From the NCBI RefSeq assembly GCF_002234535.1, contig NZ_CP022521.1, positions 62,001 to 126,000 on the forward strand: 64,000 bases of DNA. Direction: 5' to 3'. Of this stretch, positions 6,259-43,839 are shown piece after piece. Source of the stretch: Actinoalloteichus hoggarensis (GTDB taxonomy: Bacteria > Actinomycetota > Actinomycetes > Mycobacteriales > Pseudonocardiaceae). The notes beneath the pieces were generated by a model, which searched no databases, was not told where the DNA came from, and worked only from the letters and a program-made list of their open reading frames with translations. Each line of letters opens with the position of its first letter. The first letter of the stretch is position 1. The position numbers and the translations under genes are program-made.

Positions 6259-6709
6259 GGCTCAAGACCATAAGGCGTCACCTCTTGTCATCGCCGCGGT
6301 GCCGTCGTTCTCGCGCGTGTATCGGTGCCGACGCGGTCGGTGACCAGTGGTGATCGGAGTCTCGGGCCTCGTGAGTGAGCAGGCGCCCGCCGGGCGGGAT
6401 GTCGGTCCGCCTCGAATCGGTCACGACATCCCCCGGTATCACGAGCGAACGGCGTGCCTGGCGGAGTTCGGTCGGCGGGCCGCGATGTCGAGTCCACGGC
6501 GCTTTCCGGGGTCGCGAGTGCCGGACATGTTCGTCGCGCGGCTGTGGCCTGACGGCGCCTCGCTCACGGACGCGGGTTCGTCGTCGCGCGACCGCCGTCG
6601 GGGTGTCGTGAATTCCTTAACCGGTCGTTAGGGATCACGCAGCGTGCCGCTAGGTCGTTCTCGGCCATCGTCGTTCTCGTCAGCGACACACACCACGAGA
6701 GGACATCCG
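6259..6709. other. Intergenic region between two divergent genes
   Basis: About 450 bp without a convincing gene; open frames here are Arg-rich with no recognisable start signals or motifs. It must hold the promoter of the aldo/keto reductase (leftward) and of the PepSY protein (rightward). The only structure I see is the inverted repeat listed separately at 6614-6634. Confidence 0.5.
6614..6634. promoter_or_regulatory. Imperfect inverted repeat upstream of the PepSY gene
   Basis: TCCTTAAC, five bases, then GTTAGGGA: two 8-base arms with one mismatch, in a locally A+T-richer patch about 75 bp before the PepSY start codon. It has the size and placement of a dimeric regulator operator. No specific regulator can be named. 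Confidence 0.3.
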
Positions 6710-7234
6710 ATGCGCAACCCGAAGCTCATGGCCGCGGTCATCGGCGCCGCCGGACTACTGGCCGTCGGCGGCACCGCCATCGCGTTGGACGGCCGCGGCG
6801 CGAGCGAGGTCACCCCCAGCTCCTTCACCCAGCAGGTCGACGACCGGGATGACCGGCACGACCGCGACGACTGGGACGACCGCGACGACTGGGACGACCG
6901 CGACGACTGGGACGACCAGGACGACCGCGGTGGTCTCGGCGGCCCCGATGCCGCAGGCGGCTCCCCGGACTCGCGCACCGAGGCCGCGGTCAGCCGCGAC
7001 GAGGCGATCCGCATCGCCGAGGAGCAGGCACCCGGCGCCACCGTCGTCGAGGTCGACCTCGACTCCGACGACGGCAGGCTCGAATGGGAGATCGAACTGC
7101 GCCAGGACCGGACCGAATGGGAGGTCGAGATCGACGCCCACACCGGCGAGGTTCGCGACGTCGAACAGGACCACGACGACGATGACGACGACCGGGATGA
7201 CGACGACCGCTACGACGACGACTGGGACGACTGA
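6710..7234 (+). CDS. Secreted or membrane-anchored PepSY-domain protein with Asp-rich repeats
   Basis: A 174-residue protein. Residues 1-27 (MRNPKLMAAVIGAAGLLAVGG) form a signal peptide or anchor. A very acidic segment follows with three tandem DRDDWD hexapeptides, then a single PepSY domain (SRDEAIRIAEEQAPGATVVEV through IDAHTGEVRDVE) and an almost pure Asp/Arg tail ending in DDDWDD. PepSY domains are small extracytoplasmic modules thought to bind or inhibit other proteins. The Asp runs suggest divalent-cation binding, which is inference. The ATG at 6710 has AGAGG upstream. A strong hairpin follows the stop, so it is probably monocistronic. Confidence 0.85.
   Translation: MRNPKLMAAVIGAAGLLAVGGTAIALDGRGASEVTPSSFTQQVDDRDDRHDRDDWDDRDDWDDRDDWDDQDDRGGLGGPDAAGGSPDSRTEAAVSRDEAIRIAEEQAPGATVVEVDLDSDDGRLEWEIELRQDRTEWEVEIDAHTGEVRDVEQDHDDDDDDRDDDDRYDDDWDD
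6860..6913 (+). repeat. 18-bp in-frame tandem repeat (3 copies)
   Basis: Three near-identical copies of an 18-bp unit encoding the hexapeptide DRDDWD inside the PepSY gene. Period 18 keeps the frame, so copy number could vary between strains without disrupting the protein. Confidence 0.85.
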
Positions 7235-7460: not shown

Positions 7461-8762
7461 ATGTCCAGGCAGGGGAGCGATGAGACCGCGCCGATACCTC
7501 GCGTGCGGCTCCCCGAGGTTCACGAGGCATGGCTGCCACGAGAGCACGATCTGTACCGACCCCGACACGGCGGACGACAGATCCTGGCGCTGCTGGCCGC
7601 ACTGCTCTTCTTCGGCGCTCCCGCCTTCAGCTACCTGTTCGGCGCGAGAGCCACCGAGATCGAGAACCGCGCCCTGGTCGACTTCCCGAACATCATGCAT
7701 GGCTGGGGTTTCTTCACCGAGTTCCCCCAATGGTCGATCGACTACCTGCCGTTCCGCCAGTCGGCCATCACCATCGCGGACGGCGTCAGCCACGTCGTCT
7801 TCGGCGAGTCGGTGTCCCTGGACGGCGTCGGCGACGACGCGGCAGGCGGACCCATCACGCCGAGCGGCGGCGGCGACCGCAGGATCGTCTATCCCAAGGC
7901 GATCGAGGGCGGCGACGGCTGGATGTACCTGGGTGCCGACGTCGACGGCAAGTGCAACAGCGAGCGCTCCCTCGACGAGGTGATCGACGCGGTGCAGCGG
8001 CTTCGAGCCGGTGTCGAGGCCTCGGGCCGCGAGTTCGTCATGGTGATCGCTCCGGACAAGACGACGGCGGTCCCCGAACACCTGCCTGCCGACTACGCGG
8101 GCCGGGACTGCTCGAGCGAGGTCGGCGCGGAGTTCTGGAAACGGGTACCCACCGAGACGGGGGCGGTCGACATCCGGACTCCGCTGGCGGAGGCGGGCGA
8201 GGCTCTCGGTCGACCGGTGTACTACCCGCTCGACTCACACTGGATGGACGAGGGCGCCATCGCCATGCTGACCAGCGTGGCCGAAGACCTGCGTCCCGGC
8301 TCCACGGCCGCCGTCACCACCACCGAGGACGCGCTGTGGCACAGCGATGCCGATCTGCCTGTGCTCGTCGGACGGCACGCGGAACGCACCGGCATGACGT
8401 ACCGCATCCACCCGGACGGAAGTACGGACAACACCCATGGGTTGAATTACAACCTCGATCAGCCGGAGCACTTCACCGCGGGCCCGCTCGCGGGCATGAT
8501 CACCGAGCGGACCGCGATCATCGGAGACTCGTTCCTCGCCGCCGCCAGCCGGTACGTCTCCGGATTCTTCAGTGACGTGACTCTGCAGTACTACCAGACG
8601 TTGAGCCACGATCCGGACTCGGTGATCCAGATGCTCGTGGAGCAGGACGTGATCGTGGTCGAGGTCGTCGAACGGAACCTGGTCAGTGGTAGCGCGCCGT
8701 TCCTGGAGGAAGAGGTGATCGGTCTCATCAGCTCCGAGCTGGCCCGGAACCCGATCTCCTGA
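7461..8762 (+). CDS. AlgX/AlgJ-like SGNH-hydrolase-fold O-acetyltransferase, membrane anchored
   Basis: A 433-residue protein with a short cytoplasmic N-terminus, one membrane segment (about 40-62, ILALLAALLFFGAPAF) and an extracytoplasmic SGNH domain of the alginate O-acetyltransferase AlgX/AlgJ family. The catalytic Asp-x-His pair is seen in DSHWMDEGA (Asp258, His260) and the Ser in GDSFL (Ser357). Family members move acetyl groups onto exported polysaccharide, receiving them from a membrane acyltransferase. The 3' end overlaps by 35 bp the opposite-strand acyltransferase-3 gene, a likely donor partner. The glycan acceptor is unknown. Confidence 0.85.
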   Translation: MSRQGSDETAPIPRVRLPEVHEAWLPREHDLYRPRHGGRQILALLAALLFFGAPAFSYLFGARATEIENRALVDFPNIMHGWGFFTEFPQWSIDYLPFRQSAITIADGVSHVVFGESVSLDGVGDDAAGGPITPSGGGDRRIVYPKAIEGGDGWMYLGADVDGKCNSERSLDEVIDAVQRLRAGVEASGREFVMVIAPDKTTAVPEHLPADYAGRDCSSEVGAEFWKRVPTETGAVDIRTPLAEAGEALGRPVYYPLDSHWMDEGAIAMLTSVAEDLRPGSTAAVTTTEDALWHSDADLPVLVGRHAERTGMTYRIHPDGSTDNTHGLNYNLDQPEHFTAGPLAGMITERTAIIGDSFLAAASRYVSGFFSDVTLQYYQTLSHDPDSVIQMLVEQDVIVVEVVERNLVSGSAPFLEEEVIGLISSELARNPIS

Positions 8763-10215
8763 CCCCCGTGTCCTGTTTCCTGGAGCGTCCGTCGAGCTGG
8801 GCGGACCGGCGTCGATCACGATGACGCTCCCAGCGTCGGTGCAGCCGAACCGGTGGCATCTCGACACAGCGGTGCAGCATCTCCGTGGCCGCGGCCACGG
8901 CGACCAGCGACACGAGGATCGCGAGACCAGGACCGAACCGCGGCGTCATCAAACCCATGATCGGGTAGATGCAGGCGGTGTGGACCAGGTACACGCTGTA
9001 CGACCGTCTGGACATCGCCGAGATCACCGGAGCGGTCGCCAGCCTGCCGGTGCTGTTCATCACCAACACGATCAGCAAGACCAGCAGGAGCAGAGTCCGT
9101 GTGTGGGCGACCCCGGTGGTGATGTAGTCCCGCAGGAGGTCGGCGCTGAGGAACAGTCCGAAGTGCGCCAGGCCTAGACCGAGCGCGCCGAGCGGCGGAA
9201 TGCGTCGGGAGTAGGCGAGCGCGATGAGCTGACCGATGAACAGCACGGGCAGATAGCTGGTGAACATCCCGATGCGAAACGCGATGATGCCCTCATGCGC
9301 CGCGGCCCAGGACTGGGCGACCGAGACCAGCGCCGCACCCAGCAACGGCGGAAGCCAGGCCCACCGGCGTAACAACGGGATCGTGCAGGCGATGTAGGTG
9401 TAGAAGAGCAGCTGCACGACCAGAGTCCAGGTGACTCCGAGCAGGACCACCGAAGGCTGTTGGAAGTAGGTCGTCAGCATCATGTTCGCGAGGAGGTCGG
9501 CGGGGCCGCCCGCCGGATCGCCCTCCGGACTGACCAGCTCGGCCTGCACGAGGAAGTACATCGCGATGGTCACCAGCCACATCGCGGGCAGGATGCGCAC
9601 CAGCCGCCGCGCCAGGAACCGGGTCGGCGACTCACGATCGGCGACCCTCGTGATCACGATGCCGCTGATCAACAGGAACGATCCGACACCGACGAAGGAC
9701 AGGTTCAGGTTGAGATTGAGCGGGGTGGTGAGTCCGCGGTGCACGATGGTGTGACCCGGCCACAGGATCTCGTTCGAGCCGAGCCAGATCGCGAGATGCG
9801 TGTACACCACGGCGACGGCCATGAGCACGCGCAGCAGATCGAGCCCGGCGTGATAGTCCCGTCGCCGTGCCTTCTGGCGCACGGTCTCCGGCGCCGTGCG
9901 GTGCGCCGCCGCGCTCACGTCGTCGTCACGGCGCGCTTCCGACGTCCGTTCCGGCCCGGTGAACGCGGGGATCACCTCGGTGATCGCGTCATCGTCGGCG
10001 GAGTGGACGCGCGCTCGCACTCCGTCGTCCGCAGCCCTGCCACGTCCCGGCGTGCCGGGTGCCCGCGCCTGCCGCATCCGGGACGTCTGCCGCTTTCCGG
10101 GCGCCCGTGCGTCGACGATTCGGGGGATCGACTCCGTGACCGCGTCCTCGAGACGCACTTGACGTGCTCGTGCTCGACCGTCCTCGTCGTGGGCCTGTCC
10201 TGGTCGGGCCGTCAT
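8728..10215 (-). CDS. Acyltransferase-3 family membrane protein with long cytoplasmic N-terminal extension
   Basis: Integral membrane O-acyltransferase (OafA/YrhL-like), 495 residues. The first ~135 residues are charged and disordered, with two similar short motifs (DAVTESIPRIVDA, DAITEVIPAFTG). The membrane domain begins LDLLRVLMAVAVVYTHL, which carries the conserved His, and RRLVRILPAMW supplies the family Arg motif; about ten membrane segments follow. Family members transfer acetyl or other acyl groups from cytoplasmic acyl-CoA across the membrane. The ATG at 10215 has a strong GGAGGAA site. It converges with the SGNH O-acetyltransferase and may work with it. Confidence 0.88.
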   Translation of the reverse strand: MTARPGQAHDEDGRARARQVRLEDAVTESIPRIVDARAPGKRQTSRMRQARAPGTPGRGRAADDGVRARVHSADDDAITEVIPAFTGPERTSEARRDDDVSAAAHRTAPETVRQKARRRDYHAGLDLLRVLMAVAVVYTHLAIWLGSNEILWPGHTIVHRGLTTPLNLNLNLSFVGVGSFLLISGIVITRVADRESPTRFLARRLVRILPAMWLVTIAMYFLVQAELVSPEGDPAGGPADLLANMMLTTYFQQPSVVLLGVTWTLVVQLLFYTYIACTIPLLRRWAWLPPLLGAALVSVAQSWAAAHEGIIAFRIGMFTSYLPVLFIGQLIALAYSRRIPPLGALGLGLAHFGLFLSADLLRDYITTGVAHTRTLLLLVLLIVLVMNSTGRLATAPVISAMSRRSYSVYLVHTACIYPIMGLMTPRFGPGLAILVSLVAVAAATEMLHRCVEMPPVRLHRRWERHRDRRRSAQLDGRSRKQDTGVRRSGSGPARS

Positions 10216-10357
10216 GTCGGCGCTTCCTCCGGGGTTGGCGCGCCTCGCCGCAGACGAGACTTCCCACGCCTTGATGCCGGTGCGTGCCGCGGACATCGAG
10301 GTGGCGGCGGTCGCGGCGACCGCAGCCGCCCGTCCGCCGCCTGAATGATCCCGCCGA

Positions 10358-11473
10358 TCATGACCCTCCCGGCGACCGGGCTCGATCGAGGAGTCGCCGT
10401 AGACCCGTCTCGATGAATCGGTGGTAGGCGTCGGCTGCTGCCAGGTTCGCTCCGATCCCGAGTACCACGACGAGGATGACGGGCAGCGCGGTCGACGCGG
10501 TCTGGGTTGCCCAGCCGATGGTCGGGATGAACAGCAGGATCGTGTGACGCCGATCGAAGAACCACTGGAACACCCCATACGCGCCGAACCGAGGAGGATG
10601 GTTCAGCGCCAGCAGAAGCAGCAGCACGGCGAAGACCGCGCTGAGCGGGTACCACCAGTGCAGCAGCTCGCGGTACGAGTGCTCGGCCCAGGCCATCACC
10701 TGGAAGGTGGTCATGCCCAGCAGCACACCGAGCCACAGCGGAATCGTGGAGTGTCGAACCGACCAGGTGATCTGACCGATGATCACCACCGGTAGCAGGA
10801 ACGCCAGCAGGCCGAACGACCGCAACGGCCCCTCTGCTCCGACACCGACGAACACCGGCACGGCGCACAGCAGGATCTGAGTGAGAATCGCCCAGGCCGG
10901 ATGAATCCGGGCGAGTGGCCTGCACAGGATCGCCACGATGAGGAAGACCAGCACCGAGGTCAGCACGATCGCGAACGGAACCGCGTCCACCGAAGCGGTC
11001 ACCGGCGCGATGAGCAGCGCGGTCGCGACGAGGCTGCCGCCGTCCGGATCGACGTCTGCCGGAGCCGTGTAGAGCTCCCCGCCCGCCAGGAGTATCAGGA
11101 AGGCGAGGCCTGCCGTGAAGACGGCCAGCGCATAGAACATGACGAGTATGCGCATGGCGAACCGACCCAGGGGCTCCAGGTCCATCGAACGTGCCCCGAG
11201 ATAGCCCGCGATCAGCAGCAGCAGGGCGATTCCGACGAAACCGAAGTCGGCACCGATGCCCAGCGGCTCGTTCACCCACCGTCGCAGCACGACGACGAGA
11301 CCGAACGTCTCGCCCTGCCGATTCGGCCACAAGGCGACGAGGTAGCTGTACAGGACGAGGACGACGGCGACGGTGCCGAGGACGCTCAGCCCCCAGGCGT
11401 CCCGGGCCGTCGCCGTCCGGTCCGGCTGATCCGAGACGGGCCCGGTCTTCGGCTGAGTCTCCGCCGCCGTCAT
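10358..11473 (-). CDS. Acyltransferase-3-like membrane protein, catalytic His apparently absent
   Basis: A 371-residue polytopic protein with about ten membrane segments. Its layout matches the acyltransferase-3 fold: an opening helix SVLGTVAVVLVLYSYLVALW, an FVGIALLLLIAGYL segment, an RFAMRIL motif and a C-terminal AYHRFIETGL. In the opening helix a Tyr stands where the conserved His is expected (LYSY instead of LY-H), so it may be a non-catalytic relative or a flippase-like protein. It starts 4 bp after the stop of the giant glycosyltransferase gene, so the two should be co-translated, and its product probably acts on the same glycan. The family assignment is moderately sure. Confidence 0.7.
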   Translation of the reverse strand: MTAAETQPKTGPVSDQPDRTATARDAWGLSVLGTVAVVLVLYSYLVALWPNRQGETFGLVVVLRRWVNEPLGIGADFGFVGIALLLLIAGYLGARSMDLEPLGRFAMRILVMFYALAVFTAGLAFLILLAGGELYTAPADVDPDGGSLVATALLIAPVTASVDAVPFAIVLTSVLVFLIVAILCRPLARIHPAWAILTQILLCAVPVFVGVGAEGPLRSFGLLAFLLPVVIIGQITWSVRHSTIPLWLGVLLGMTTFQVMAWAEHSYRELLHWWYPLSAVFAVLLLLLALNHPPRFGAYGVFQWFFDRRHTILLFIPTIGWATQTASTALPVILVVVLGIGANLAAADAYHRFIETGLRRLLDRARSPGGS

Positions 11474-11477
11474 CGGA

Positions 11478-14400
11478 TCAGGATGCCGACGGGTCCAGCC
11501 ACAGCGTCGAGAACCCCGTGGCGCTGCCCCGCGCGTCGTCGATGATCGCCGCGTCGTCGGGCAGGATCTCGCCCGCGACGTCACGAATGCGGTAGCCCAG
11601 TTCCCGATACTCGGAGAGGACCGACTTCGGATCGTCCGTCAGCTCCTCGATCTGCTCCGGGCAGAACTCGCAGACGACATGCGGCCGATCACGAATCAGG
11701 ATGTCCCGCAGCCCCGTCAGCGCTCGATGGTCACGGCCCTGGAGATCAACCTTGATCAACGAGATCGGCGCCTCGATGACCTCGGCCTGAGAGCCCAGCG
11801 CCACGGCGGGCACCGTCACCGAATGGTTCTCCGCCCACTCGCTGACCCGGAAGTCACCACTGTTGTCCGCATCGGCGGCCAATAGCGAGAGCTTGGTGGA
11901 CGTGTCCCAGGCCGCGACCGGGAGGACGACCACACGTTCCGCCGCCGAGGGCGCGAGATTCGCGCTGATGTTGCGGCGCAGGAACTCGGCCGTCTCCGGA
12001 TTCGCCTCCACGGCGATCACCCGATGCTGTGGGTGCTGCGTGAGCAGGCGCAGCGAGTGGTAACCGACGTGCGCGCCGATGTCGAGGAACGTGCCGTCAC
12101 CCGCCAGCCGCGCTATCAGCCGGGCCTCCTCCAGCTCCCAGCTCCGGTGGTACCGAATCCATGGCAGGACGACCTCGTCCGACGGCATCAACAATGCGCC
12201 CGCATCGCATACCACGACCTCCGACCCCGGCGGGACGGAGCTGTGTCGTGCCGCGATGAGTGCGTGCAGGGCGTCGAGATCGCGCTGAGCCTGTGCCAGC
12301 TCGACGTCGAGGTGATCCGCTCTGCGATCACGCTCGGCGAACATCGTGAACGACTGCTCGCCCGCCTCGTCGACCCGCTGGTGCAGCCCGTGCAGTTCGG
12401 CGGTGTGCCCGGCCTGGACCGAGCTGAGGGAGAGCTGCTGCTCCTCGGACAGTCGGGCCTGTTCCAGGAGCCTGTTCTCGAGCTTGTGCAGCGCGTCGTC
12501 GTGACCGCGCAGCGCGGTGCCCAGCCGGCTCGCGACGGCTCTGACCTCCGACTTCACCTCCTCATCGCCGACCAGCTGCCGCTGCTGGAGGTCGGTGAGC
12601 TGAGATGAGAGGCTGTCGATCCGATCGTGGGCCGCCTGGAGGCTGCCCTCCACACCGTCGGTCACGGCACCGAGGACACGACGCTGGTGGACGTCGTAGT
12701 GATCGACCGCCCGGAGCACCGCCTTGCGCAACGCGGGTGCCAGCGGATTCCGCGAGGGCATCTCGGTGTCGGCCCGCCAGCGCAGCGCCTCCCGCGCCCG
12801 GCGCAGCGGTTCCATCGGGCCCGCCTGCTGCTCGGGAGCGGCCGGTGTCTGCTCGCCGGCGCGGCGTTCCCGCCAGGTGGCGTAGGCCCGCTCGAGCTGG
12901 TCGCGCATCCACGTCGCGGTGGTGTCGAGACTTCTGGTGGCCAGCAGATGCGCACGCGCCGCGGCCCCGCGTCTGCGGGCCTCCTCGGGGTCCTCCACGA
13001 CCTGACGCATCGCCGCCGCGGCGGCGTCCAGATCGGGATCGGCCCAGATCGCCGAGGCGTGATACGGCTCGCAGCGTTCCCCGACGGGGATCGTGGTGAA
13101 CGGAATCGGCCAGCCGGTCTCGGCGGTCATGAACTCGGTGGTGCTCGAGTAGTCCGTGGAGATCGTCGGAAGCTCCAGCATCATCGCCTCGGCGACGGTC
13201 AGCCCGAATCCTTCGCTGCGATGAAGCGAGACATAACAGTCGCTGTCGGCGTAGAGCGCCCGCAACTCCTCGACCGACAGATAGCGCTCCAGCAGGTCGA
13301 TCCGTGCATCGGCGGCTGCCAGGGAGCGCAGCCGCTCAGCTGCCTCCGGATGCAGCGCCCCGTTGATCGCCTTGATGGTGAGCCGGACGTCCTGCCGGTC
13401 GGGGAAGGCGCGTTGGAACGCCGTGACGAGGCCCCACGGGTTCTTCCGTTCTCCGACGCTGTTGAAGTCGAAGGCGAAGAGGAACCGGACGGGCTCGCCC
13501 TCCTCGTGGTCCCGACGGATCGGAGCACCGGTGTCCCGGACCGGGACGGGGATCGTGTGCACCGGGACGGGGGAGTGCCTGGCGATGGCATCACGGCAGA
13601 AGTCGCTGACGGTCCAGATCTCGTCGACCATGCTGAACGAGCCGTGCAGGGACTCCGGGAAGTCCTCCAGCTCCCACGCCCACAGACCGATGCGATACCG
13701 ATCGCGGACGGCGTCGGCATGGGTCGCGCTCACCGCCGGAATCTGATCGGCGTTGACACAGATCAGGCTGACCGGGAACCGCGGATCGCCCAGCGTCTCC
13801 GGGGCGGCCAGATCGGTACGGTTGGAGACGAGCTCGTCCTCCACCACGGCCGCGATCGGAACGTCGGCGCGCCGGATCGCGTCGTGCACGATCCTGGCCA
13901 TCTCGCCGAGGCCGAGCTCGGCCGTCAGATAGCCGAGCAGGTTGACGCCGAACCGGTCCAGCGGGGCGCTCGTCCTGGGAGAGACCGTGGGCAGTGCCCA
14001 CTCGGCGATCTGCTTCTCCTTCGTCCCGGAGTTCAGACACCAGTGTCGGTAGCCCTCGGCGTCGGCGCCCCACGGTTGTGGGAAGGCCACCTGCAGATCG
14101 GGGCGAGACTGCCAGACCGCCGTCGTCCACCGGCTGAGCCCCGCCGACGCCTGCTGCGCGTCGTCGGGCGCCGTCAGCCAGTCGCGAAACGCCTTGCCGC
14201 CGTCGACGCCGAACGCATGCGGCGGAGCGGGCGGCAACGGCCGTCGGCTGGGCGTGCCGGTGGCGCGTTCGGACTTGATCCAGCCCGCCCGGAACACCCG
14301 ACGCATGATCGGCGTGATGCGCGTCCCGTCGTCGAGGGTGTTGTAGCGGTAGGGGATCGACTCCACCGAATCTGCATAGCCTGCCGCCAGCAACGCCTGT

Positions 14401-15236
14401 CCGTACCCGTCGCAGAGCGCCCGCAGCGCCGGGTGATCGGACAGCAGAGTGCGGGGCTTGCGCGCACAGTGGAAGGTCAGCAGCCAGGGCTTCTCCGGCC
14501 GGTAACCGCTGAAGTGGAAGAACCGCAGCGGCCTTCCCGCGGCGGTGTACGCCCCGTCGGCCTCCTGCCGGATCGGCCGCTGCCACACGTTCCAGTACGC
14601 GACGTTGAGCCCCGGGTCTCGCCAGATGTGATGCGGGAACAGCGCGGGCGCCTGGTCCACCCATCGCTGATCGGTGAACAGCTGCTTCTCGGGAGCCGCG
14701 ATGGCGTCGTGTCGCAGGCGGGAGGCCCAGAAGTCCAGGAAACCCTCCGAGCCCGCGCCCACGGCGATGAAGCCGAGGTTGTAGATCCCGGTGCCCATGA
14801 TGACGGCGTCGTCGGGCTCCAGCCCGTCCTGCGGAATCGGCTCCAGGGTGTGCGGCGTCAACACGATGGAGTTCGCCGCGGCGAGCTCGACCACCTCGCC
14901 GAACGGACTGAAGACCTGGATGTCCGGATCGAGGTAGACGGCGACGTCGGCCTGCTCACGCAGTGTGCGCAGCAGGTACGGCTTGACCGCCGTCGCCAGC
15001 TCCATGACCGTGTACGAGGTGGCCATCCGCAGATAGTCGTCCTCGTCGATGCCGAACCAGTCGGGGCCGACGATGGTCGCGTGCTCGTCCTGCTCCTCAC
15101 CGGGTTCGCGGTCGATCACCGCGATGACGAAGCCGTGTTCCGGATGATGCTCGCGGAACGACCGGGCGAGCACTCTCGCGGCGGGCAGATAGTTCTTCGC
15201 GACGATGGTGCACGCCAGGGCCGTGAACTCACTCAT
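11478..15236 (-). CDS. Giant fusion: GT8-like glycosyltransferase, GT4-like glycosyltransferase, coiled coil, FkbM methyltransferase
   Basis: 1252 residues, cytoplasmic. Residues 1-300 resemble a nucleotide-sugar glycosyltransferase with a DxD motif (VYLDPDIQVF, about 100). Residues 428-780 resemble a GT-B family 4 glycosyltransferase: SEGFGLTVAEA near 680 holds the E-x7-E motif. Residues ~830-1000 are heptad-rich and Gln/Leu-rich, probably a coiled coil. Residues ~1010-1252 form an FkbM-type methyltransferase with the SAM motif FLDIGAHVGYHSL near 1050. The protein could thus add two sugars and one methyl group in a surface glycan; the product is unknown. It overlaps the upstream membrane-protein gene by 8 bp and is followed 4 bp later by an acyltransferase-like gene. 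Confidence 0.88.
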   Translation of the reverse strand: MSEFTALACTIVAKNYLPAARVLARSFREHHPEHGFVIAVIDREPGEEQDEHATIVGPDWFGIDEDDYLRMATSYTVMELATAVKPYLLRTLREQADVAVYLDPDIQVFSPFGEVVELAAANSIVLTPHTLEPIPQDGLEPDDAVIMGTGIYNLGFIAVGAGSEGFLDFWASRLRHDAIAAPEKQLFTDQRWVDQAPALFPHHIWRDPGLNVAYWNVWQRPIRQEADGAYTAAGRPLRFFHFSGYRPEKPWLLTFHCARKPRTLLSDHPALRALCDGYGQALLAAGYADSVESIPYRYNTLDDGTRITPIMRRVFRAGWIKSERATGTPSRRPLPPAPPHAFGVDGGKAFRDWLTAPDDAQQASAGLSRWTTAVWQSRPDLQVAFPQPWGADAEGYRHWCLNSGTKEKQIAEWALPTVSPRTSAPLDRFGVNLLGYLTAELGLGEMARIVHDAIRRADVPIAAVVEDELVSNRTDLAAPETLGDPRFPVSLICVNADQIPAVSATHADAVRDRYRIGLWAWELEDFPESLHGSFSMVDEIWTVSDFCRDAIARHSPVPVHTIPVPVRDTGAPIRRDHEEGEPVRFLFAFDFNSVGERKNPWGLVTAFQRAFPDRQDVRLTIKAINGALHPEAAERLRSLAAADARIDLLERYLSVEELRALYADSDCYVSLHRSEGFGLTVAEAMMLELPTISTDYSSTTEFMTAETGWPIPFTTIPVGERCEPYHASAIWADPDLDAAAAAMRQVVEDPEEARRRGAAARAHLLATRSLDTTATWMRDQLERAYATWRERRAGEQTPAAPEQQAGPMEPLRRAREALRWRADTEMPSRNPLAPALRKAVLRAVDHYDVHQRRVLGAVTDGVEGSLQAAHDRIDSLSSQLTDLQQRQLVGDEEVKSEVRAVASRLGTALRGHDDALHKLENRLLEQARLSEEQQLSLSSVQAGHTAELHGLHQRVDEAGEQSFTMFAERDRRADHLDVELAQAQRDLDALHALIAARHSSVPPGSEVVVCDAGALLMPSDEVVLPWIRYHRSWELEEARLIARLAGDGTFLDIGAHVGYHSLRLLTQHPQHRVIAVEANPETAEFLRRNISANLAPSAAERVVVLPVAAWDTSTKLSLLAADADNSGDFRVSEWAENHSVTVPAVALGSQAEVIEAPISLIKVDLQGRDHRALTGLRDILIRDRPHVVCEFCPEQIEELTDDPKSVLSEYRELGYRIRDVAGEILPDDAAIIDDARGSATGFSTLWLDPSAS

Positions 15237-16458
15237 TCGGCACCTGAGACACCATCTGCTGGTTCAAGACCTCCTGGTGCCTGTCGCCGACCGCCTGCTC
15301 GCTCGTGCCTCGGACCTGAATGCGGATCAGCAGGTCCTCGCTGACGTAGTGCGCGCGGACCATCGACTCGTCGCCCTCTCCGGCGACCAGCCACGCCTCG
15401 TTGACCCCGGGCGGACCGTCGCGGAGCTCGAGGCCGTAGTTCTCCTGCAATGTGGTGAGCTCGTCGCGCGCCGTCGTCGCCGACTCCTCGTCCGCCATCT
15501 GCACGACGAAGACCACCACGTGGGTTCCATCGTCGAAGTTCGAGACGAGTGCTCGTGCGTCGGCCGCACCGCCGGTCGTGAACGCCGCGTCCTCGCCCTC
15601 GGTGAGGGTTCGGATCTCCTGAATGCCCGGGTAGTCGACGATCTCGGCCTTGTCCAGCTCCTGCGCGCCTCCGATGTCCGCGGGCAACAACGGGTCACGC
15701 GGCTCCCGAGCCTCTTCGGACGACGGAGACGAGTCGGAGGGGTCGGCGGCGCCGGTCTGGCTGGTGTCGTCGCTCGCCTCGGTGGACTCGCCCTGACCCC
15801 AGAGCATCCAGGCACCGAACGCGATCGCGGCGAGGACGACGACGGCCACGACGACGGCCACGATCTTCGGTCCCTTGCCGCCGCCGTCGCTCTCGAAGGC
15901 CTCCGGCCCCTGCCGGATCCAGTTCTCCGAGGAGCCTGCCGCCATCGGCGGAAGATCCGACCCCGCCCACGGCGGCTGACTGTCGCCGCCGGCCCAGGGC
16001 GGCTGTGCCATACCCGGCGGCGGCGCGTTGTAGTTGCCTTGCGGGAAGCCGCCGGGCGGCGACTGCGGCGCCTGCGGTGGCGGTCCGGCGGGATAACCCT
16101 GCTGCGGATATCCCTGAGGCTGCTGCTGGCCGAGGCCGCGGACGACCTGGGTGCGGTCGGCGTCGCTCTGGCCGCCTGCCTGGCCACCCGGCTGCTGACG
16201 CCAGTCCTGCCGGACCACCTGAGTGGCATCGCTCGGAGGGGTGGCGCCGCCCTGCCGTTGATCGTTCTCTGAATTGGGGCCTATCAACTGAGTCGACTCC
16301 ATCGACGAGGGGGCCTCGTGGCCGGTGCTCTGGGGGGTGCCGGTGGTGCCTTGGCCGCCTGCCTGCAGCTGGTCGCGGCGGGCGCGATATTCCTCGGCGG
16401 AGATCCGACCTGTCGCGAGGTCCGCGTCCAGCTTCTGCGCCTCTTCCTGCCAGGTCAC
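15229..16458 (-). CDS. Single-pass membrane protein with SHOCT-like N-terminus and Pro/Gln-rich linker
   Basis: A 409-residue protein. Residues 1-35 (VTWQEEAQKLDADLATGRIS, EEYRARRDQL) resemble a short SHOCT-like helical module. A Gln/Pro/Gly-rich linker to about 195 follows, then one membrane segment (IVAVVVAVVVLAAIAFGAWML) and an extracytoplasmic domain of about 190 residues of unknown fold. The GTG at 16458 aligns with the MTWQDEL start of the paralogue just upstream. Its stop overlaps the start of the giant glycosyltransferase by 8 bp, which implies tightly coupled translation, so it may help recruit or regulate that enzyme. The role is inferred from context only. Confidence 0.75.
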   Translation of the reverse strand: MTWQEEAQKLDADLATGRISAEEYRARRDQLQAGGQGTTGTPQSTGHEAPSSMESTQLIGPNSENDQRQGGATPPSDATQVVRQDWRQQPGGQAGGQSDADRTQVVRGLGQQQPQGYPQQGYPAGPPPQAPQSPPGGFPQGNYNAPPPGMAQPPWAGGDSQPPWAGSDLPPMAAGSSENWIRQGPEAFESDGGGKGPKIVAVVVAVVVLAAIAFGAWMLWGQGESTEASDDTSQTGAADPSDSSPSSEEAREPRDPLLPADIGGAQELDKAEIVDYPGIQEIRTLTEGEDAAFTTGGAADARALVSNFDDGTHVVVFVVQMADEESATTARDELTTLQENYGLELRDGPPGVNEAWLVAGEGDESMVRAHYVSEDLLIRIQVRGTSEQAVGDRHQEVLNQQMVSQVPNE

Positions 16459-16739
16459 CCTGACACCCCCTTTCCTCACGCGTCAAGCATGCCTATTGTC
16501 CACACCCCACCAAACCCTCGATGAGGCCGCGATCGGGTGTCACCAATCTGTGATGAGTGCCCGGTTCTAGGTCACCGTCAGTGCTTCGGCGCCGGTGCCG
16601 GATCGTTGCCTCGGGTCGATCCGTGGGTTGGTTCGCACCATGTCACGTCCAGGTGCGGACCGACGTCACCGTCGAGGCGTCGAGACGACGCGGGACGCGG
16701 GCCGCGGATCGGATGCGATCAGTCCGTGCGGGGCGGCTC

Positions 16740-18275
16740 TCAATTCTGCTCCAGCGTCCGGAGCGTGTCCTCGGCGAGGGTGCGGAACGCCGCCGCGACC
16801 GGCTCGCCCGCGCCGTTCGTCGGTCCCGCCACGCCGATGCGGACCACGTACTCGCCGGAGACATAGACGGCCCGATGAATGCTCTGCTCCTCGCCGACCT
16901 GCTCGAAGACGCGTACCTCCGCGGGGACTTCCTCCATCGCGACGGCGGCGAGTCCCAACTCGGTCTGCGAGCGGGCCAACGCCTCAGCGGCCGCCAGTGC
17001 CGCGTCAGCGGTCGGGGCGACGCCGACGAGGACGCCGAAGGCGTTGTCACCGTCCACCGAACCCCGGAAGAAGATCTCCGACACGTCATGGTCGGCGAAC
17101 GTGGCGACCTCGCTCTCGCCGAGGACTCCCGCGTTCACTGCCGCGTCACGGCTCATCGCCTCGGGATGGGGAGCGACGGCGCCGGGCAGCGCGGGGAAGT
17201 CCGGCTGTACGGCCTCCTCCGCGGGCGCGGCGCCGTCGCCCTGACCCTGCGCGTGGTCCGGGACGGTCGTGTCCCCGGGCTCCGGGCCGTTCTGGGAGAG
17301 AAGCCAGAAGGCACCCGCCGCGATCACCGCGAGTACGACGACGGCGACGGCCACGATCGGCAGGTACTTCCGTCGCGGCCTGGCGTTCTGCGCGCTGAAG
17401 ACCTCCTCGGCGCGGCCCGCGTAGGGACCCGGCCTGCTCGCCTGGTCGGTCTCCCGCAGTGCCAGCGCGTCCTGGTCGGTCTGGTGGACGTTCGGGTGGT
17501 CCTGCATGACCGCGCCGAGCCGGGCGCCGAGCGTCTGGGCCTCCGTCGCGCCGTCGGGCACCGGGACGCCGGGGTTCGGGCCTGCCTGCCGTGCGGTGCT
17601 CGGCACCGGAGCTGGTGCGGTCGGCCCGGCGCCGGGCGCTCCCGTCGTCGCGGGGCGTGAGGTCGGATGACTCGGGGCGGGCGCGGCGGCGGCCAGCTGC
17701 TCGTCCGCTGCCGGAGTCGTCGCGGCCGGGGCGTCAGGATCGTTCGACACGGCCGCCGCGGTGACGTCGTCCCGGCCGATCACGCCCGGCTGGTCGGTCG
17801 GGTGGGCGCCCGGCCGGCCGGGCGCTCCGTCGGTCACCTGGTCGGTCGTCGCTTCGGCGGGCGAGGGCTCAGCCGGGTCCTGCCGCGTCTGCTCGATCCG
17901 CGCCTGCTCCGGCTGCGTCCGGGGCGCCACGGCGTGCTCGTGCTCGGCCGCGCTCACGCCGGCTGCGTCGGACGTGCCCGCGCCGGCCGCTCCGGTGCCT
18001 CTGCCCGCGAACGCCTGGGAGATGGATGCCGCGCCCGCCTCGGTTCGAGTGGCCGCCTCGCCTGCGGCGGCCTGCTGCGCGTCGGTCTGCGCGGGCGTCG
18101 AGAGCGCGGCGATCGGCTGATTGCGCAGTGTGAGCTGAGTGTCGAAGGGCGATCCCGCCCTGCTGCCCGCTGCGATCGACAGGACGGCGTCTCGTTGCTC
18201 CTGATGCTCGCTCTGCGAGATGTCGCCTGCAGCGAGAGCGGTATCGAGTCTGCGCAACTCGTCCTGCCAGGTCAT
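16740..18275 (-). CDS. Paralogous single-pass membrane protein, SHOCT-like N-terminus, Ala/Pro-rich linker
   Basis: A 511-residue paralogue of the next gene, with the same plan. The start MTWQDELRRLDTALAAGDIS matches; a very long Ala/Thr/Pro-rich cytoplasmic linker runs to about 310; one membrane segment (LPIVAVAVVVLAVIAAGAFWLL) is followed by an outer domain that shares an EHLYVSGEYVVRIGV-like end with its neighbour. The ATG at 18275 has AAGGAG at proper spacing. About 280 bp separate it from the following gene, so the two may have separate promoters. No function is known. Confidence 0.72.
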   Translation of the reverse strand: MTWQDELRRLDTALAAGDISQSEHQEQRDAVLSIAAGSRAGSPFDTQLTLRNQPIAALSTPAQTDAQQAAAGEAATRTEAGAASISQAFAGRGTGAAGAGTSDAAGVSAAEHEHAVAPRTQPEQARIEQTRQDPAEPSPAEATTDQVTDGAPGRPGAHPTDQPGVIGRDDVTAAAVSNDPDAPAATTPAADEQLAAAAPAPSHPTSRPATTGAPGAGPTAPAPVPSTARQAGPNPGVPVPDGATEAQTLGARLGAVMQDHPNVHQTDQDALALRETDQASRPGPYAGRAEEVFSAQNARPRRKYLPIVAVAVVVLAVIAAGAFWLLSQNGPEPGDTTVPDHAQGQGDGAAPAEEAVQPDFPALPGAVAPHPEAMSRDAAVNAGVLGESEVATFADHDVSEIFFRGSVDGDNAFGVLVGVAPTADAALAAAEALARSQTELGLAAVAMEEVPAEVRVFEQVGEEQSIHRAVYVSGEYVVRIGVAGPTNGAGEPVAAAFRTLAEDTLRTLEQN

Positions 18276-20868: not shown

Positions 20869-21987
20869 TCACGACCCGGCTGGGGCGGCGTCCCTTCGGC
20901 GGGCGTGACGATCGCGTTCACGCCGCCGGTACCAGTCGTGGACGGGCAGCTCGACCAGTCGATACAGCAGCTCGGCACAGACGCCGGAGACCAGGATCGC
21001 CGCCACGACGGCCATGCCCGCTCCGGCATGCGGGCTGACGAACTCCAGGATCGGGAAGCCGACCGGCATGTGGATGAGGAAGATCGAGTACGTCCGCTTC
21101 GCCACCTCGCGGACGGCTCGTGATCGAGCAAGGCCGCCGTTCGCCCCGAGCAACAGCACCGTCAGCAGGGTCATCAACAGCACGGTCCGCTCGACAGGGT
21201 CACCGTAAGGGATGGTCTCGTGATTCAGCCCGCCCCAGATGAACAGCAGGTAGTGGCCGGCTCCGACGGCGATGCCCGCGGACGGCCGCAGGCGCCCGGA
21301 GCGCACCAGCGAGATGCACTGCCCGATGAACAACACCGGCAGAAAAGTCGCCATGGTGCGGAGATGGTTCAGAGTCGCCGTGGGCGTCTCCATCGTCAAC
21401 GCGAGCGCGATGCCGATGATCAGTCCTGCGATGAGTGGTCCGAGCCACGGCCTGTCCCGTCCAGGGCGGATCATCGCCGCGGTGAACAGGTAGAAGGCGA
21501 ACTGCAGCGTCAGAGTCCAGGCCACCGGAAGGACGACGTTCTGCTCGGTCAGGAAGTGATTGGCCAGCGTGAGGCTGCCGATCAGCGCGTTGGCGTCGGC
21601 CGTCATGGCGGGATTGCCGCCGGGGAACACCTCGATCAGCACCAGCAGCCAGCTGATCACCACGGCGACCCAGAAGGCGGGCAGCAACCGGAACGCCCGC
21701 CGCACCAGGAACTGTCCCGGCGTCTCCTTCTCCGTCACGTAGCTGATGACCAGCCCGCTGATCAAGAACAACGATGACAGACCGACCATGCCGAGGTTCG
21801 GCAGCAGTCGCAGCGATGCGACCGTGTCGTTCACCGCGTCACGGAAGTCCAACGCCAGATCTCGAGTCGCAGTCCAGTCCATGAAATGGCGATAGACGAT
21901 GAACAGGGCGGCGACGGCTCGGAGGACGTCCAATCCGTAGAGGTATTGCCGCTTCGGCGCCGGTGACGGGGGTGGTGGAGTGCTCAC
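20869..21987 (-). CDS. Acyltransferase-3 family membrane protein
   Basis: Integral membrane O-acyltransferase, 372 residues, about ten membrane segments. The opening helix YGLDVLRAVAALFIVYRHF carries the conserved Arg and His. RRAFRLLPAFW is the second Arg motif, and the C-terminal Ser-rich end KRTYSIFLIHMPVGFP and YRLVELPVHDWYRRRE match OafA-type enzymes. It closely resembles the protein at 8728-10215 (shared LFLISGLVI, FLPVLFIGQ patterns), so the two are paralogues. The start is GTG with GGAGGGATCTACAG upstream. The acceptor glycan is unknown. Confidence 0.9.
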   Translation of the reverse strand: MSTPPPPSPAPKRQYLYGLDVLRAVAALFIVYRHFMDWTATRDLALDFRDAVNDTVASLRLLPNLGMVGLSSLFLISGLVISYVTEKETPGQFLVRRAFRLLPAFWVAVVISWLLVLIEVFPGGNPAMTADANALIGSLTLANHFLTEQNVVLPVAWTLTLQFAFYLFTAAMIRPGRDRPWLGPLIAGLIIGIALALTMETPTATLNHLRTMATFLPVLFIGQCISLVRSGRLRPSAGIAVGAGHYLLFIWGGLNHETIPYGDPVERTVLLMTLLTVLLLGANGGLARSRAVREVAKRTYSIFLIHMPVGFPILEFVSPHAGAGMAVVAAILVSGVCAELLYRLVELPVHDWYRRRERDRHARRRDAAPAGS

Positions 21988-22067: not shown

Positions 22068-22074
22068 TCCCGAG

Positions 22075-22145
22075 CGGACGACGGGATTCGAACCCGCGAC
22101 CCTCACCTTGGCAAGGTGATGCGCTACCACTGCGCTACGTCCGCA
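22075..22145 (-). tRNA. tRNA-Gly (anticodon GCC)
   Basis: A 71-base cloverleaf on the minus strand: 7-bp acceptor stem GCGGACG/CGTCCGC, D-loop with AGTGGTA, anticodon stem TCACC/GGTGA with loop TTGCCAA (anticodon GCC), and a T-loop TTCGAAT closed by a GCGGG/CCCGT stem (one G-T pair). The 3' CCA is not encoded. It decodes GGC/GGU glycine codons. Confidence 0.97.
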
Positions 22146-28665: not shown

Positions 28666-30285
28666 TCAGTGATCGGTGGCCTTCTCCGCACCGAGGCCGG
28701 TCAGCGAACGCACCTCCATCTCGCTGTACTTCGCCGGATCGGCGGGGCTCTTCGAGAGCATGGTGCCCAGCCAGCCGAGGGCGAAGGAGATCGGGATCGA
28801 GACGATGCCGGGGTTCGAGAGCGGGAACCAGTCGAAGTCCGCCGAGGGGAACATCGCGGTCTCGCTGCCGGACACGGCGGGCGAGAAGACGATGAGCGTG
28901 ACGGTGACGGCCAGGCCGCCGTACATGCTGTAGAGCGCCCCGGTGGTGTTGAAGCGCTTCCAGAACAGCGAGTACAGGATCGTGGGCAGATTCGCCGAGG
29001 CCGCCACGGCGAACGCCAGCGCGACCAGGAAGGCGATGTTCTGCCCGTTGGCCACGATGCCGCCGAGGATGGACACCACACCGATGACGACCGCGGTGAT
29101 CCGGGCCACCCGCACCTCCGCCGCCTTGTCATCGGCCTCGCCGCCCTTGATCACGTTGGCGTAGATGTCATGTGCGAAGGAGGCAGACGCGGTGATGGTC
29201 AGTCCCGCCACGACCGCGAGGATGGTCGCGAACGCCACGGCCGCGATGAAGCCGAGCAGCAGCGGGCCGCCGAGTTCGGCCGCCAGCAGCGGAGCCGCCG
29301 AGTTCACCCCGCCGGGGGCCTCCTGAATCCGTTCCGGGCCGACGATGGCACCCGCGCCGTAGCCGAGCACCAGGGTGAACAGGTAGAACAGGCCGATCAG
29401 CCAGATGGCCCACTGCACGGAGCGGCGGGCCTCCTTGGAGGTCGGCACGGTGTAGAACCGCATCAGGATGTGCGGCAGCCCGGCGGTGCCCAGCACCAGT
29501 GCCAGCGACAATGACAGGAAGTCGATCCTCGTCAGCAGCGAGGCCCCGTAGGCCATGCCGGGATTGAGCACGTCCTCGGTGCCTGCGGACTCGACCGCCG
29601 CGCCGAGCAGCTCCGAGAGGTTCATGCCGTACATGCCGAGCACCCACACGGTCATCACCGCGGCGCCGGAGATCAGCAGAGCGGCCTTGATGATCTGCAC
29701 CCACGTGGTGCCGCGCATCCCGCCGATCAGCACGTACACGATCATCAGCGCGCCGACGACCGCGATGACGAGGGCCTGGCCCGCACCGCTCTCGATGCCG
29801 AGCAGCAGGGCGATGAGCCCGCCCGCTCCCGCCATCTGCGCCAGCAGATAGAAGAAGGACACCGCGAGGGTGGAGATGGCCGCGGCGGTCCGGACCGGCT
29901 TCTGCTTCATCCGGAAGCTCAGCACGTCGGCCATCGTGTAGCGGCCGGTGTTGCGGAGCAGCTCCGCCACCAGCAGCAGCGCGACCAGCCAGGCGACGAG
30001 GAAACCGATCGAATAGAGAAAACCGTCGTAGCCGTTCACCGCGATGGCGCCGGCGATGCCGAGGAATGATGCCGCCGACAGATAGTCGCCGGAGATGGCG
30101 ACGCCGTTCTGCGGTCCGCTGAACGCCCGCCCGGCCGCGTAGTAGTCGGCGGCGGTCTTGGTGTTGCGGCTGGCCCGCAGCACGATCACCAGGGTGACCG
30201 CGACGAAGAGGCCGAAGATGCCGATGTTGAGCCAGGGCGATCCGATGTCGCCCTGAGCGAGGATCACCGTCTCGGCACTGGTCAT
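28666..30285 (-). CDS. Solute:sodium symporter, acetate/monocarboxylate permease (ActP/MctC-like)
   Basis: A 539-residue polytopic transporter of the SSS family with about 13 helices. Early markers are NGVAISGDYLSAASFLGIAGAIAVNGYDGF, GRYTMADVLSFRMKQKP and GTAGLPHILMRFYTV, all typical of acetate/pyruvate permeases. It would take up short monocarboxylates with a cation; acetate, propionate and pyruvate are known substrates in the family. Its ATG overlaps the stop of a small DUF485 protein, the usual ActP accessory. The C-terminal tail (SEMEVRSLTGLG) is cytoplasmic. The gene is followed by a strong hairpin. Confidence 0.92.
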   Translation of the reverse strand: MTSAETVILAQGDIGSPWLNIGIFGLFVAVTLVIVLRASRNTKTAADYYAAGRAFSGPQNGVAISGDYLSAASFLGIAGAIAVNGYDGFLYSIGFLVAWLVALLLVAELLRNTGRYTMADVLSFRMKQKPVRTAAAISTLAVSFFYLLAQMAGAGGLIALLLGIESGAGQALVIAVVGALMIVYVLIGGMRGTTWVQIIKAALLISGAAVMTVWVLGMYGMNLSELLGAAVESAGTEDVLNPGMAYGASLLTRIDFLSLSLALVLGTAGLPHILMRFYTVPTSKEARRSVQWAIWLIGLFYLFTLVLGYGAGAIVGPERIQEAPGGVNSAAPLLAAELGGPLLLGFIAAVAFATILAVVAGLTITASASFAHDIYANVIKGGEADDKAAEVRVARITAVVIGVVSILGGIVANGQNIAFLVALAFAVAASANLPTILYSLFWKRFNTTGALYSMYGGLAVTVTLIVFSPAVSGSETAMFPSADFDWFPLSNPGIVSIPISFALGWLGTMLSKSPADPAKYSEMEVRSLTGLGAEKATDH

Positions 30286-30626
30286 CGTCCGCCTCCCTCG
30301 GCTTCTTCCCGGATCCGATCGGCGAGAGGATCGAGCCTGCGATTCGCGAACCGCACGTAGAGCATCGTGATCGCGAAGGTGGAGACGAACTGGAGAAGGC
30401 CGAATATCAGGCCGAGGTTGATGTTGCCGATGAGCTTGATGCTCATGAAGTCATGTGCGAAGTCGGCCACCAGGACATAAAGGAGATACCACGCGAGGAA
30501 CAGCGCGGTCATCGGGAAGACGAAACGGCGCAGTCTGCGTCGCAGGTCGACGAAGTCCGGCGTCTCCTGGATGGCACGCCAGTCGTCCGGGCCGGGTGGT
30601 GGGGGTGGTGGCGGTGTCTCGCTCAC
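30282..30626 (-). CDS. DUF485 membrane protein, symporter accessory subunit
   Basis: A 114-residue protein with a Pro-rich N-terminus (ETPPPPPPPGPDDW) and two membrane helices (about 40-60 and 72-95). RRRLRRFVFPMTALFLAWYLLYVLVADFA is the DUF485 signature. Such proteins precede and are co-expressed with acetate/pyruvate SSS symporters, where they are thought to assist assembly or activity. The GTG at 30626 has GGGAGGTCCT upstream. It overlaps the symporter start (ATGA). This pair is one operon, separate from the second symporter cluster to the right. Confidence 0.9.
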   Translation of the reverse strand: MSETPPPPPPPGPDDWRAIQETPDFVDLRRRLRRFVFPMTALFLAWYLLYVLVADFAHDFMSIKLIGNINLGLIFGLLQFVSTFAITMLYVRFANRRLDPLADRIREEAEGGGR

Positions 30627-30998
30627 AGGACCTCCCTGCTGGCTTGGGGGTGTCCCACATGCTTGTGTCGCGTTGATCACATCGGAAGCCGCCAAACGGG
30701 GGGCTTACCCGCCTGCCTCGGAGGAATCTGACAGCACAGGGTGTTTTCGTCTACGTTGAGTGACGGTGATGCGGTTCGATTCTCACTCTTTGGATGCATG
30801 TCTTGATTCGGTCGAGTGAGAAGTTTTCGACGGAGCCCGCCCTCGGCGGAGGTCCGAGCTTGGCGTGCGGGTCCCGAATCGTCGACCCCGGCGAATCGGC
30901 GCGGCCGAACGTGCCCGTCCGATTGTGTCCGTTTCGCGCGGTCAAGCCCGTTCTGGCGGAATGCGATCGGCGGCCGCACGGCGTCGCCCACCGATCCG
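30627..30998. other. Promoter-containing intergenic region, A+T-richer than its surroundings
   Basis: About 370 bp between the second symporter's stop and the DUF485 start, both genes on the minus strand. It must hold the promoter of the DUF485/symporter operon and possibly a terminator of the upstream operon. The visible structure is the inverted repeat at 30780-30822. No small gene is supported. Confidence 0.5.
30780..30822. promoter_or_regulatory. Inverted repeat in the symporter-operon upstream region
   Basis: Nine-base arms TTCTCACTC and GAGTGAGAA separated by 25 bases, 154 bp before the DUF485 start codon. It could be a regulator target (for example for the LytTR protein encoded nearby) or a weak hairpin. 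Assignment to a regulator is a guess. Confidence 0.35.
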
Positions 30999-32816: not shown

Positions 32817-32964
32817 GGCGTCGCTGCCCCGTCCATCGCGCGGCGGGCCGCGGATGCGGCCGAAGATCCGCCGGGGTGCGCCCACTCACGGCGGCCTGCC
32901 CGGTCGTCGAACGACCCAGCCACGCGACGGGGCGATCCGACCGCCTGCGCGCGACGTGGTGACA

Positions 32965-33390
32965 TCAGTTCTCCACCATGTCTACGAAGTCCCGCTCATG
33001 CCGCTCGGCCTGCACGCTGTAGGCATAGCCGGCCGCGATGAACAGCGGGAAAGGCAGCACACCCAGGAGCACCCAGGAGACCCTGATCCCGCCGACCGAC
33101 AGCGTCGCGAAGGCGGGGAACAGCCAGAAGAGCACCGGCAGGCTGCCGAGCAGGGCCAACGTCGCCAAGGCCAGTCGTAACGCCGTGCGCAGCTGCGCAC
33201 GGATGAGGTTGCGCACGAGCGCCTCGCCGACGCTGGTCTGCTCCTCCAGTTCCGTGATCTGCCGGATCGGGCCGCGGTGCGCACGGCGATCCGCGAGCAC
33301 CACCTTGACCCGGCGCAGGCGGCGTCCCGGTGGTGCCTCCAGCGTGTCGGGGTCGGGAAGCTCCGCGCGATCGTCGTCCGGGGGGATCAT
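32965..33390 (-). CDS. Small two-helix membrane protein between LytTR regulator and symporter
   Basis: A 141-residue protein: a charged cytoplasmic N-terminus with a helical stretch (RQITELEEQTSVGEALVRNLIRAQLRTALRL) and two membrane helices (about 74-95 and 103-125). Position and topology mimic the DUF485 accessory of the first symporter, although the sequence differs. Its ATG overlaps the regulator's stop (ATGA). Probably the accessory subunit of the symporter encoded next; this is inferred. Confidence 0.8.
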   Translation of the reverse strand: MIPPDDDRAELPDPDTLEAPPGRRLRRVKVVLADRRAHRGPIRQITELEEQTSVGEALVRNLIRAQLRTALRLALATLALLGSLPVLFWLFPAFATLSVGGIRVSWVLLGVLPFPLFIAAGYAYSVQAERHERDFVDMVEN

Positions 33391-36934: not shown

Positions 36935-37053
36935 GGGTCCCATGCTCCGATGATCTGTGCCGACGTGGCAATCCACTCGGGTTTTGTCGCCCGAATGGAG
37001 CAGCACACGAGAAAACCCCGCATGTCGCCCGACTGATCACCGGCACGCCGCCC

Positions 37054-43817: not shown

Positions 43818-43839
43818 GTCGTACCTGTCTCCCGGTTGG

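Follow-up and report, generated by a model that had tools for sequence, protein, structure and literature searches.

A conserved Pseudonocardiaceae locus for a predicted methylated and acylated envelope glycan in Actinoalloteichus hoggarensis

Here we describe a six-gene locus of Actinoalloteichus hoggarensis (assembly GCF_002234535.1), found in a 64,000-nucleotide stretch of contig NZ_CP022521.1 (positions 62,001 to 126,000, hereafter the window). The genome is a single contig of 6.6 Mb, of which the window covers the part from 62 to 126 kb. The locus encodes a large glycosyltransferase (GT) protein, two single-pass membrane proteins (SP1 and SP2), two proteins of acyltransferase-3 (AT3) type and an AlgX-like enzyme, and is probably devoted to a methylated, acylated envelope glycan. 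An earlier note on this DNA had proposed that the six genes together make such a surface glycan; a locus of this kind is indeed kept together in relatives, but the idea of one single machine is not supported. In a more detailed reading, this conserved chromosomal module would make an O-methylated, O-acylated envelope glycan in five steps. To this reading, taken with all its steps, we give a probability of about 0.4.

According to the five-step model, two GT modules would build a chain at the cytoplasmic face. A coiled coil would keep the FkbM methyltransferase a set distance away; chains would be methylated, and their growth ended, only once they are long enough. SP1 would tether the GT protein to the membrane and tune it from a PknH/LpqN-like ectodomain via the threonines of its TQ motifs, which might be phosphorylated and read by FHA proteins. 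Then, a heteromer of AT3a and AT3b would acylate the exported glycan, and AlgX would add acetyl groups from a distant MBOAT. The genes of the locus, with two neighbors, are the following:

16740-18275, minus strand: SP2, with a SHOCT-like N terminus (E 0.0044, below cut-off), a long low-complexity linker, one transmembrane segment (by eye) and an ectodomain
15229-16479, minus strand: SP1, with a SHOCT/DUF1707-like N terminus (sub-threshold), a linker with three [DE]xTQxx motifs, one transmembrane segment and a PknH/LpqN-like ectodomain
11478-15236, minus strand: GT protein, with a GT-A-like module (residues 1 to about 300), a GT4 module (about 430-790), a coiled coil (about 853-1009) and an FkbM methyltransferase (about 1050-1217)
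10358-11473, minus strand: AT3b, an AT3-derived membrane protein without the catalytic histidine (homology to AT3a by tblastn)
8728-10215, minus strand: AT3a, a canonical stand-alone acyltransferase-3 with a cytosolic N tail of about 110 residues (Acyl_transf_3, 1.6e-23)
7461-8762, plus strand: AlgX/AlgJ-like SGNH O-acetyltransferase with D258/H260 and S357 motifs present (Pfam ALGX, 5.8e-16)
20869-21987, minus strand: AT3c, a further AT3-type protein, 34% identical to AT3a, membership unsure
6644-7234, plus strand: PepSY-domain protein encoded before AlgX and conserved in the two congeners, membership unsure

All six open reading frames announced by the earlier note were found, and third-position GC is high in five of them; the frame listed for AT3a (8728-10578), whose start is over-extended, missed this filter. 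AT3a probably starts at ATG 10215 (495 aa), a start kept in two congeners, and AT3b at ATG 11473 (371 aa). Transcription on the minus strand runs SP2, SP1, GT, AT3b, AT3a, while AlgX converges on AT3a from the opposite strand, their 3' ends overlapping by 35 bp. The 8-bp overlap of GT and SP1 (15229-15236) and the 4-bp gap between AT3b and GT (11474-11477) are as previously reported. Pfam and NCBIfam name AlgX, AT3a, GT4 and FkbM, which agrees with the announced SGNH O-acetyltransferase and giant glycosyltransferase/methyltransferase; the SP proteins gave sub-threshold matches only. A promoter/terminator scan returned no more signals than shuffled sequence.

Searching with the GT protein yielded 53 loci, most of them labeled as genera of the Pseudonocardiaceae, a family of soil bacteria, and 17 further stretches came from relatives. 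Without six duplicates (L079, L081, L082, L083, L085, L086), the comparison covered 65 loci, the window among them. The GT tree comprises 63 rows, without the short matches L055 and L056, and alignments A1 (24 rows, L033 left out for a stop in its translation) and A2 (19 rows) were hand-picked from the 65 loci to span genera. In 57 of the 65 loci, an SP-family match precedes the GT match and ends less than 1.3 kb from it, the spacing being at most 103 bp in 56 of them and 369 bp in one; in two other loci, it lies downstream. This linkage exceeds chance. Further SP-family genes stand upstream of SP1 in many loci, and msrA and SDR/AKR genes border the module in many loci, indicating a conserved genomic place with variable content. 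Sixty genomes were also searched, that of A. hoggarensis included. Strong GT matches (E 1e-52 or better) occur in 27 of the 36 genomes of the family and represent either this gene or a second paralogue family, about 37% identical and encoded at another genomic place, and no match better than E 1e-18 was found in the 24 genomes of the same order outside the family. An apparent giant version of the second paralogue, 2773 residues long (L076, G000:C1:5440002-5442950, own genome), was discarded, as its length is an artefact of a stretch that partly reads N. Locus L043, on a contig labeled Rhodococcus rhodnii, falls inside Kibdelosporangium in the GT tree with the same gene order, and is probably from a mislabeled strain.

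The loci fall into two classes: 42 have an FkbM domain at the end of the GT protein and 23 do not. An AT3 gene stands near GT (up to about 9.5 kb downstream or 4.5 kb upstream of it) in 41 of the 42 fused loci versus one of the 23 non-fused ones (41/42 versus 1/21 on tree rows, Fisher p 3e-14). Together with the SP1-GT pairing, this bears out the expectation that the genes stay together in relatives. Non-fused loci often encode a protein with two GT4 domains, and some a GDP-mannose 4,6-dehydratase; 18 of the 23 have a separate methyltransferase near GT, of type c26 (Methyltransf_25 with an Ig-like match), c30 (Methyltransf_23) or c31 (FkbM). Fourteen loci, mostly of Amycolatopsis/Prauserella, carry between GT and AT3 a 383-aa membrane protein without Pfam match (cluster c11, for instance L006:13697-14848, minus strand), which by eye resembles a GT-C (PIG-V-like) mannosyltransferase.

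Sequence comparison establishes that two predicted GT modules, a putative length-constrained coiled coil and an FkbM methyltransferase with intact motifs are united in one GT protein. The GT4 module is clear (1.2e-12) and FkbM forms the C terminus; the catalytic motifs of both are conserved across aligned rows (18/18 for FkbM). The coil was scored with our own heptad-periodicity test, using 500 shuffles per sequence. Heptad periodicity was observed in residues 853-1009 (window numbering) of all 18 fused orthologues tested, of 42, with 0 to 3.4% of shuffles reaching it per orthologue, and in none of five control stretches from other domains. The coil segment is 37% identical on average, versus 59-70% for the other parts of the protein, and its length is nevertheless held at 139-164 residues. 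A free sequence with a fixed length would be expected of a ruler, and the coil between the GT modules and FkbM could play this role. By analogy with known systems, we infer that FkbM may terminate the chain. A similar coil was considered in the separate methyltransferases and rejected, as periodicity went beyond 5% of shuffles in one of six c30 proteins and in none of six c31 tails.

Several observations weigh against the five-step model. The first GT module is a sub-threshold GT8 match (E 0.0058), and the DxD of this GT-A-like module is not present in all rows (D105 20/24). Constant coil length could follow from relatedness alone, and FkbM might methylate internal residues rather than terminate. 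Since the fused/non-fused state changes just three times on the tree (sign test p 0.25), the association of fusion with AT3 cannot reach significance by independent contrasts and is suggestive only. Moreover, there is no ABC exporter gene among the annotated genes of the six-gene set and Wzt_C was found in none of the 36 family genomes, so that an export coupling through Wzt_C was abandoned; an exporter could still be encoded among the 22 ABC2_membrane matches in other parts of the genome.

It is quite possible, if short of probable, that the coil is an oligomerisation or tethering spacer only, that FkbM acts on internal or side residues, decorating a glycan or glycolipid, and that its length is set otherwise, with neither ruler nor terminator. 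Decoration by O-methylation is the best-known role of FkbM enzymes. The separate methyltransferases of non-fused loci make methylation steadier than fusion and show little coil signal, and the missing Wzt_C also means that no such reader of a capped end was found in the family genomes. On the other hand, coil length is kept despite divergence, with the methyltransferase at the coil end far from the GT modules, and GT modules and methyltransferase at opposite ends of a coil are the ruler-terminator arrangement (available text of PMC11231755).

In Klebsiella pneumoniae, O7 ORF6 and O12 WbbB are fusions of polymerase, coiled-coil ruler and terminator, and the O7 terminator includes a methyltransferase (same source, in part). 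The GT protein resembles them in joining two predicted GT modules, a putative coiled coil and a terminator-type domain in one chain. However, its domain order is mirrored (GT-GT-coil-methyltransferase), FkbM stands in place of a methyltransferase-kinase, the host is actinobacterial, and the gene set has no Wzm/Wzt, in keeping with the Wzt_C result. In capped ruler-terminator types, Wzt has a C-terminal carbohydrate-binding domain. The dedicated Wzm/Wzt exporter of the ruler-terminator class was not found at the locus, and we therefore consider that the GT protein may work like, rather than be, a ruler-terminator polymerase. WbdA-WbdD of E. coli O9a/Klebsiella O3 is likewise a dual-GT polymerase with a coil-borne methyl terminator, and relatives in which the GT protein is shorter and a methyltransferase is encoded separately nearby resemble its split form; unlike it, no kinase domain is seen here and the heptad signal of the separate methyltransferases is weak. 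No named pathway or described system matching the locus was found by narrow searches of open-licence PubMed Central (PMC) full text, subscription papers being outside, in line with the earlier note, whose author knew of no described system with this gene set. The boldest version of our model seems unlikely: a one-protein polymerase, ruler and methyl terminator of mirror-order O7 type, tunable by Ser/Thr kinases, with a PknH-fold SP1 tether, an AT3 heteromer with an obligate dead subunit, and, as product, a methylated, acylated envelope glycan of controlled chain length whose chemistry is as yet undescribed.

Two acyltransferase-3-type proteins had been reported in the set. AT3a is canonical, but AT3b, without any Pfam match, is not, and a third one, AT3c, sits just outside the six genes; a homologue of AT3c (45%) adjoins msrA in one of two congeners. 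R-x10-H and RXXR motifs are described as essential in AT3 proteins (PMC9833829, available text). In our joint alignment, all four residues are present in 17 of 17 AT3a/c-type rows and nearly always in 37 other AT3 proteins, whereas AT3b keeps the catalytic histidine in 0/15, the first arginine in 3/15 and the RXXR arginines in 2/15 and 5/15. AT3a follows AT3b on the same strand in all 15 pairs scored. AT3b is under purifying selection, with ratios of nonsynonymous to synonymous substitution rates (dN/dS) of 0.23 and 0.38 in two comparisons (0.25 and 0.24 for AT3a). In the simplest reading, AT3b would be a non-catalytic, AT3-derived partner of AT3a.

This reading has to face two further facts. 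AT3b shows weaker constraint (0.38) than AT3a (0.24) in one of the two comparisons, and GWT1, a related transmembrane acyltransferase without the catalytic histidine, is described as catalysing acyl addition (PMC12423673, seen in part), so AT3b may still be active. GWT1 and the purifying selection would both suit an AT3b that is an active acyltransferase in its own right with different catalytic residues. We consider this improbable, as the histidine is gone in 15/15, the four essential residues are never all kept, and an intact AT3a follows it in 15/15. AT3a resembles stand-alone AT3 proteins (PF01757), its R-x10-H and RXXR motifs being intact, and the locus differs from them by the degenerate neighbor before each AT3a-type gene scored. 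No catalytic/degenerate pair of this kind was found in the available parts of the open-licence PMC literature on AT3 proteins. The N tail of AT3a (about 9960-10150) carries T-E-x-I-P motifs reminiscent of kinase sites, in two copies, in 3/3 of the window genus only. Kinase-like T-x-x-I-P motifs are not claimed as general to the membrane proteins of the locus: the AT3 count (30/45, 4.3 expected) is contaminated by E[VI]TxE[IL]P, by eye the end of the last AT3 helix.

The SGNH residues of AlgX (D-x-H-W and [GSA]DSF) are intact in 25 of 25 proteins. Of the 36 family genomes, 30 have both AlgX and an MBOAT and four have neither, with one discordant genome each way (Fisher p 0.0004); the two discordant genomes are incomplete assemblies (74% and 86%). 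The 24 genomes that belong to the order but not to the family yielded no match to either. The single MBOAT match of the A. hoggarensis genome lies about 303 kb away, adjoins a second AlgX and has the C-terminal end FLYYQF, which fits the FXYXXF acyl shuttle described for MBOAT proteins (PMC12148441, available text). In four genomes (G008, G023, G029, G033), every AlgX copy found lies close to a GT locus and the MBOAT is elsewhere, and G012 has an AT3b-AT3a pair (L082) without any AlgX or MBOAT match. Because of this co-occurrence and these layouts, the MBOAT is the most likely partner of AlgX, in trans, and AlgX is probably an add-on to the locus (it is near GT in 24 of 63 tree rows). MBOAT-SGNH O-acetyltransferases such as PatA/PatB and AlgI/AlgJ/AlgX share the SGNH residues and the FXYXXF-type MBOAT end; the difference here is the remote MBOAT with its own AlgX neighbor.

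The idea of a single machine is not supported on these grounds: the complete SP/GT/AT3b/AT3a/AlgX set occurs in 7 of 65 loci only, AlgX tracks a distant MBOAT rather than the AT3 pair, and AT3b has lost catalytic residues. We see little chance that AlgX belongs with the AT3 pair to one acetylation unit, a split AT3-SGNH fusion in which AT3a/AT3b would pass acetyl through the membrane and AlgX transfer it. Adjacency in the window and six further full-set loci speaks for such a unit, and possible use of a PatB-type SGNH protein of an MBOAT system by a stand-alone AT3 is discussed in the available text of PMC9558356. Set against these are the co-occurrence with MBOAT, the four genomes with AlgX near GT loci and the MBOAT elsewhere, and G012. 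The AlgX N tail (7461-7500) has a T-A-P-I-P motif, reminiscent of kinase sites, in 3/3 of the window genus; overall, a kinase-like motif is found there in 4 of 25 proteins (these three and the MBOAT-side copy of the A. hoggarensis genome), with 0.7 expected.

SP1 and SP2, presented earlier as paralogues, are clearly alike over about their first 46 residues only (E 6e-6), the remainder aligning weakly. The SP1 ectodomain has the PknH-sensor/LpqN fold. It differs from the PknH extracellular domain, TiME and LpqN by its low identity (6-12%) and lack of a kinase domain, and a PDB profile search with its sequence gave chance-level matches only. The TQ motifs of the SP1 linker are phosphosites by inference, which also weakens the third step of the model. 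Short extra SP1 copies (about 200 aa, ectodomain without the N-terminal tail) lie between GT and AT3b in several loci (L019:13776-14378, L020:13788-14390, L029:13724-14272). A tRNA-Pro(GGG) called by ARAGORN inside SP1 (15936-16025, minus strand) is no tRNA by Rfam and is probably false.

Acylated methylglucose polymers exist. A cytosolic polymethylated polysaccharide system like mycobacterial MGLP/MMP would agree with a GT and a methyltransferase in an actinobacterium and with an alpha-amylase-family gene after AT3a in relative L004, but is very improbable given the extracellular setting implied by the membrane-anchored SP1 with its ectodomain, the AT3 membrane proteins and the SGNH enzyme behind a transmembrane segment, and no MGLP-specific gene was recognised among the annotated neighbors (no genome-wide search was made).

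If the five-step model holds, the ruler-terminator principle of O-antigen synthesis would extend to an actinobacterial family as a mirror-order fusion, and chain-length control of an envelope glycan could be tested directly by altering one coil. In addition, the AT3 field would gain a natural catalytic/non-catalytic pair, and a PknH-fold sensor would be linked to a glycan polymerase.

Elsewhere in the window, a tRNA-Gly at 22072-22144 is called by both ARAGORN and Rfam. After two adjacent sodium:solute symporter genes (28666-32885, minus strand) come genes for a LytTR response regulator (33387-34214) and for a histidine kinase (35549-37006), and an EspG-family gene (ESX secretion) is found at 43008-44555 on the minus strand.
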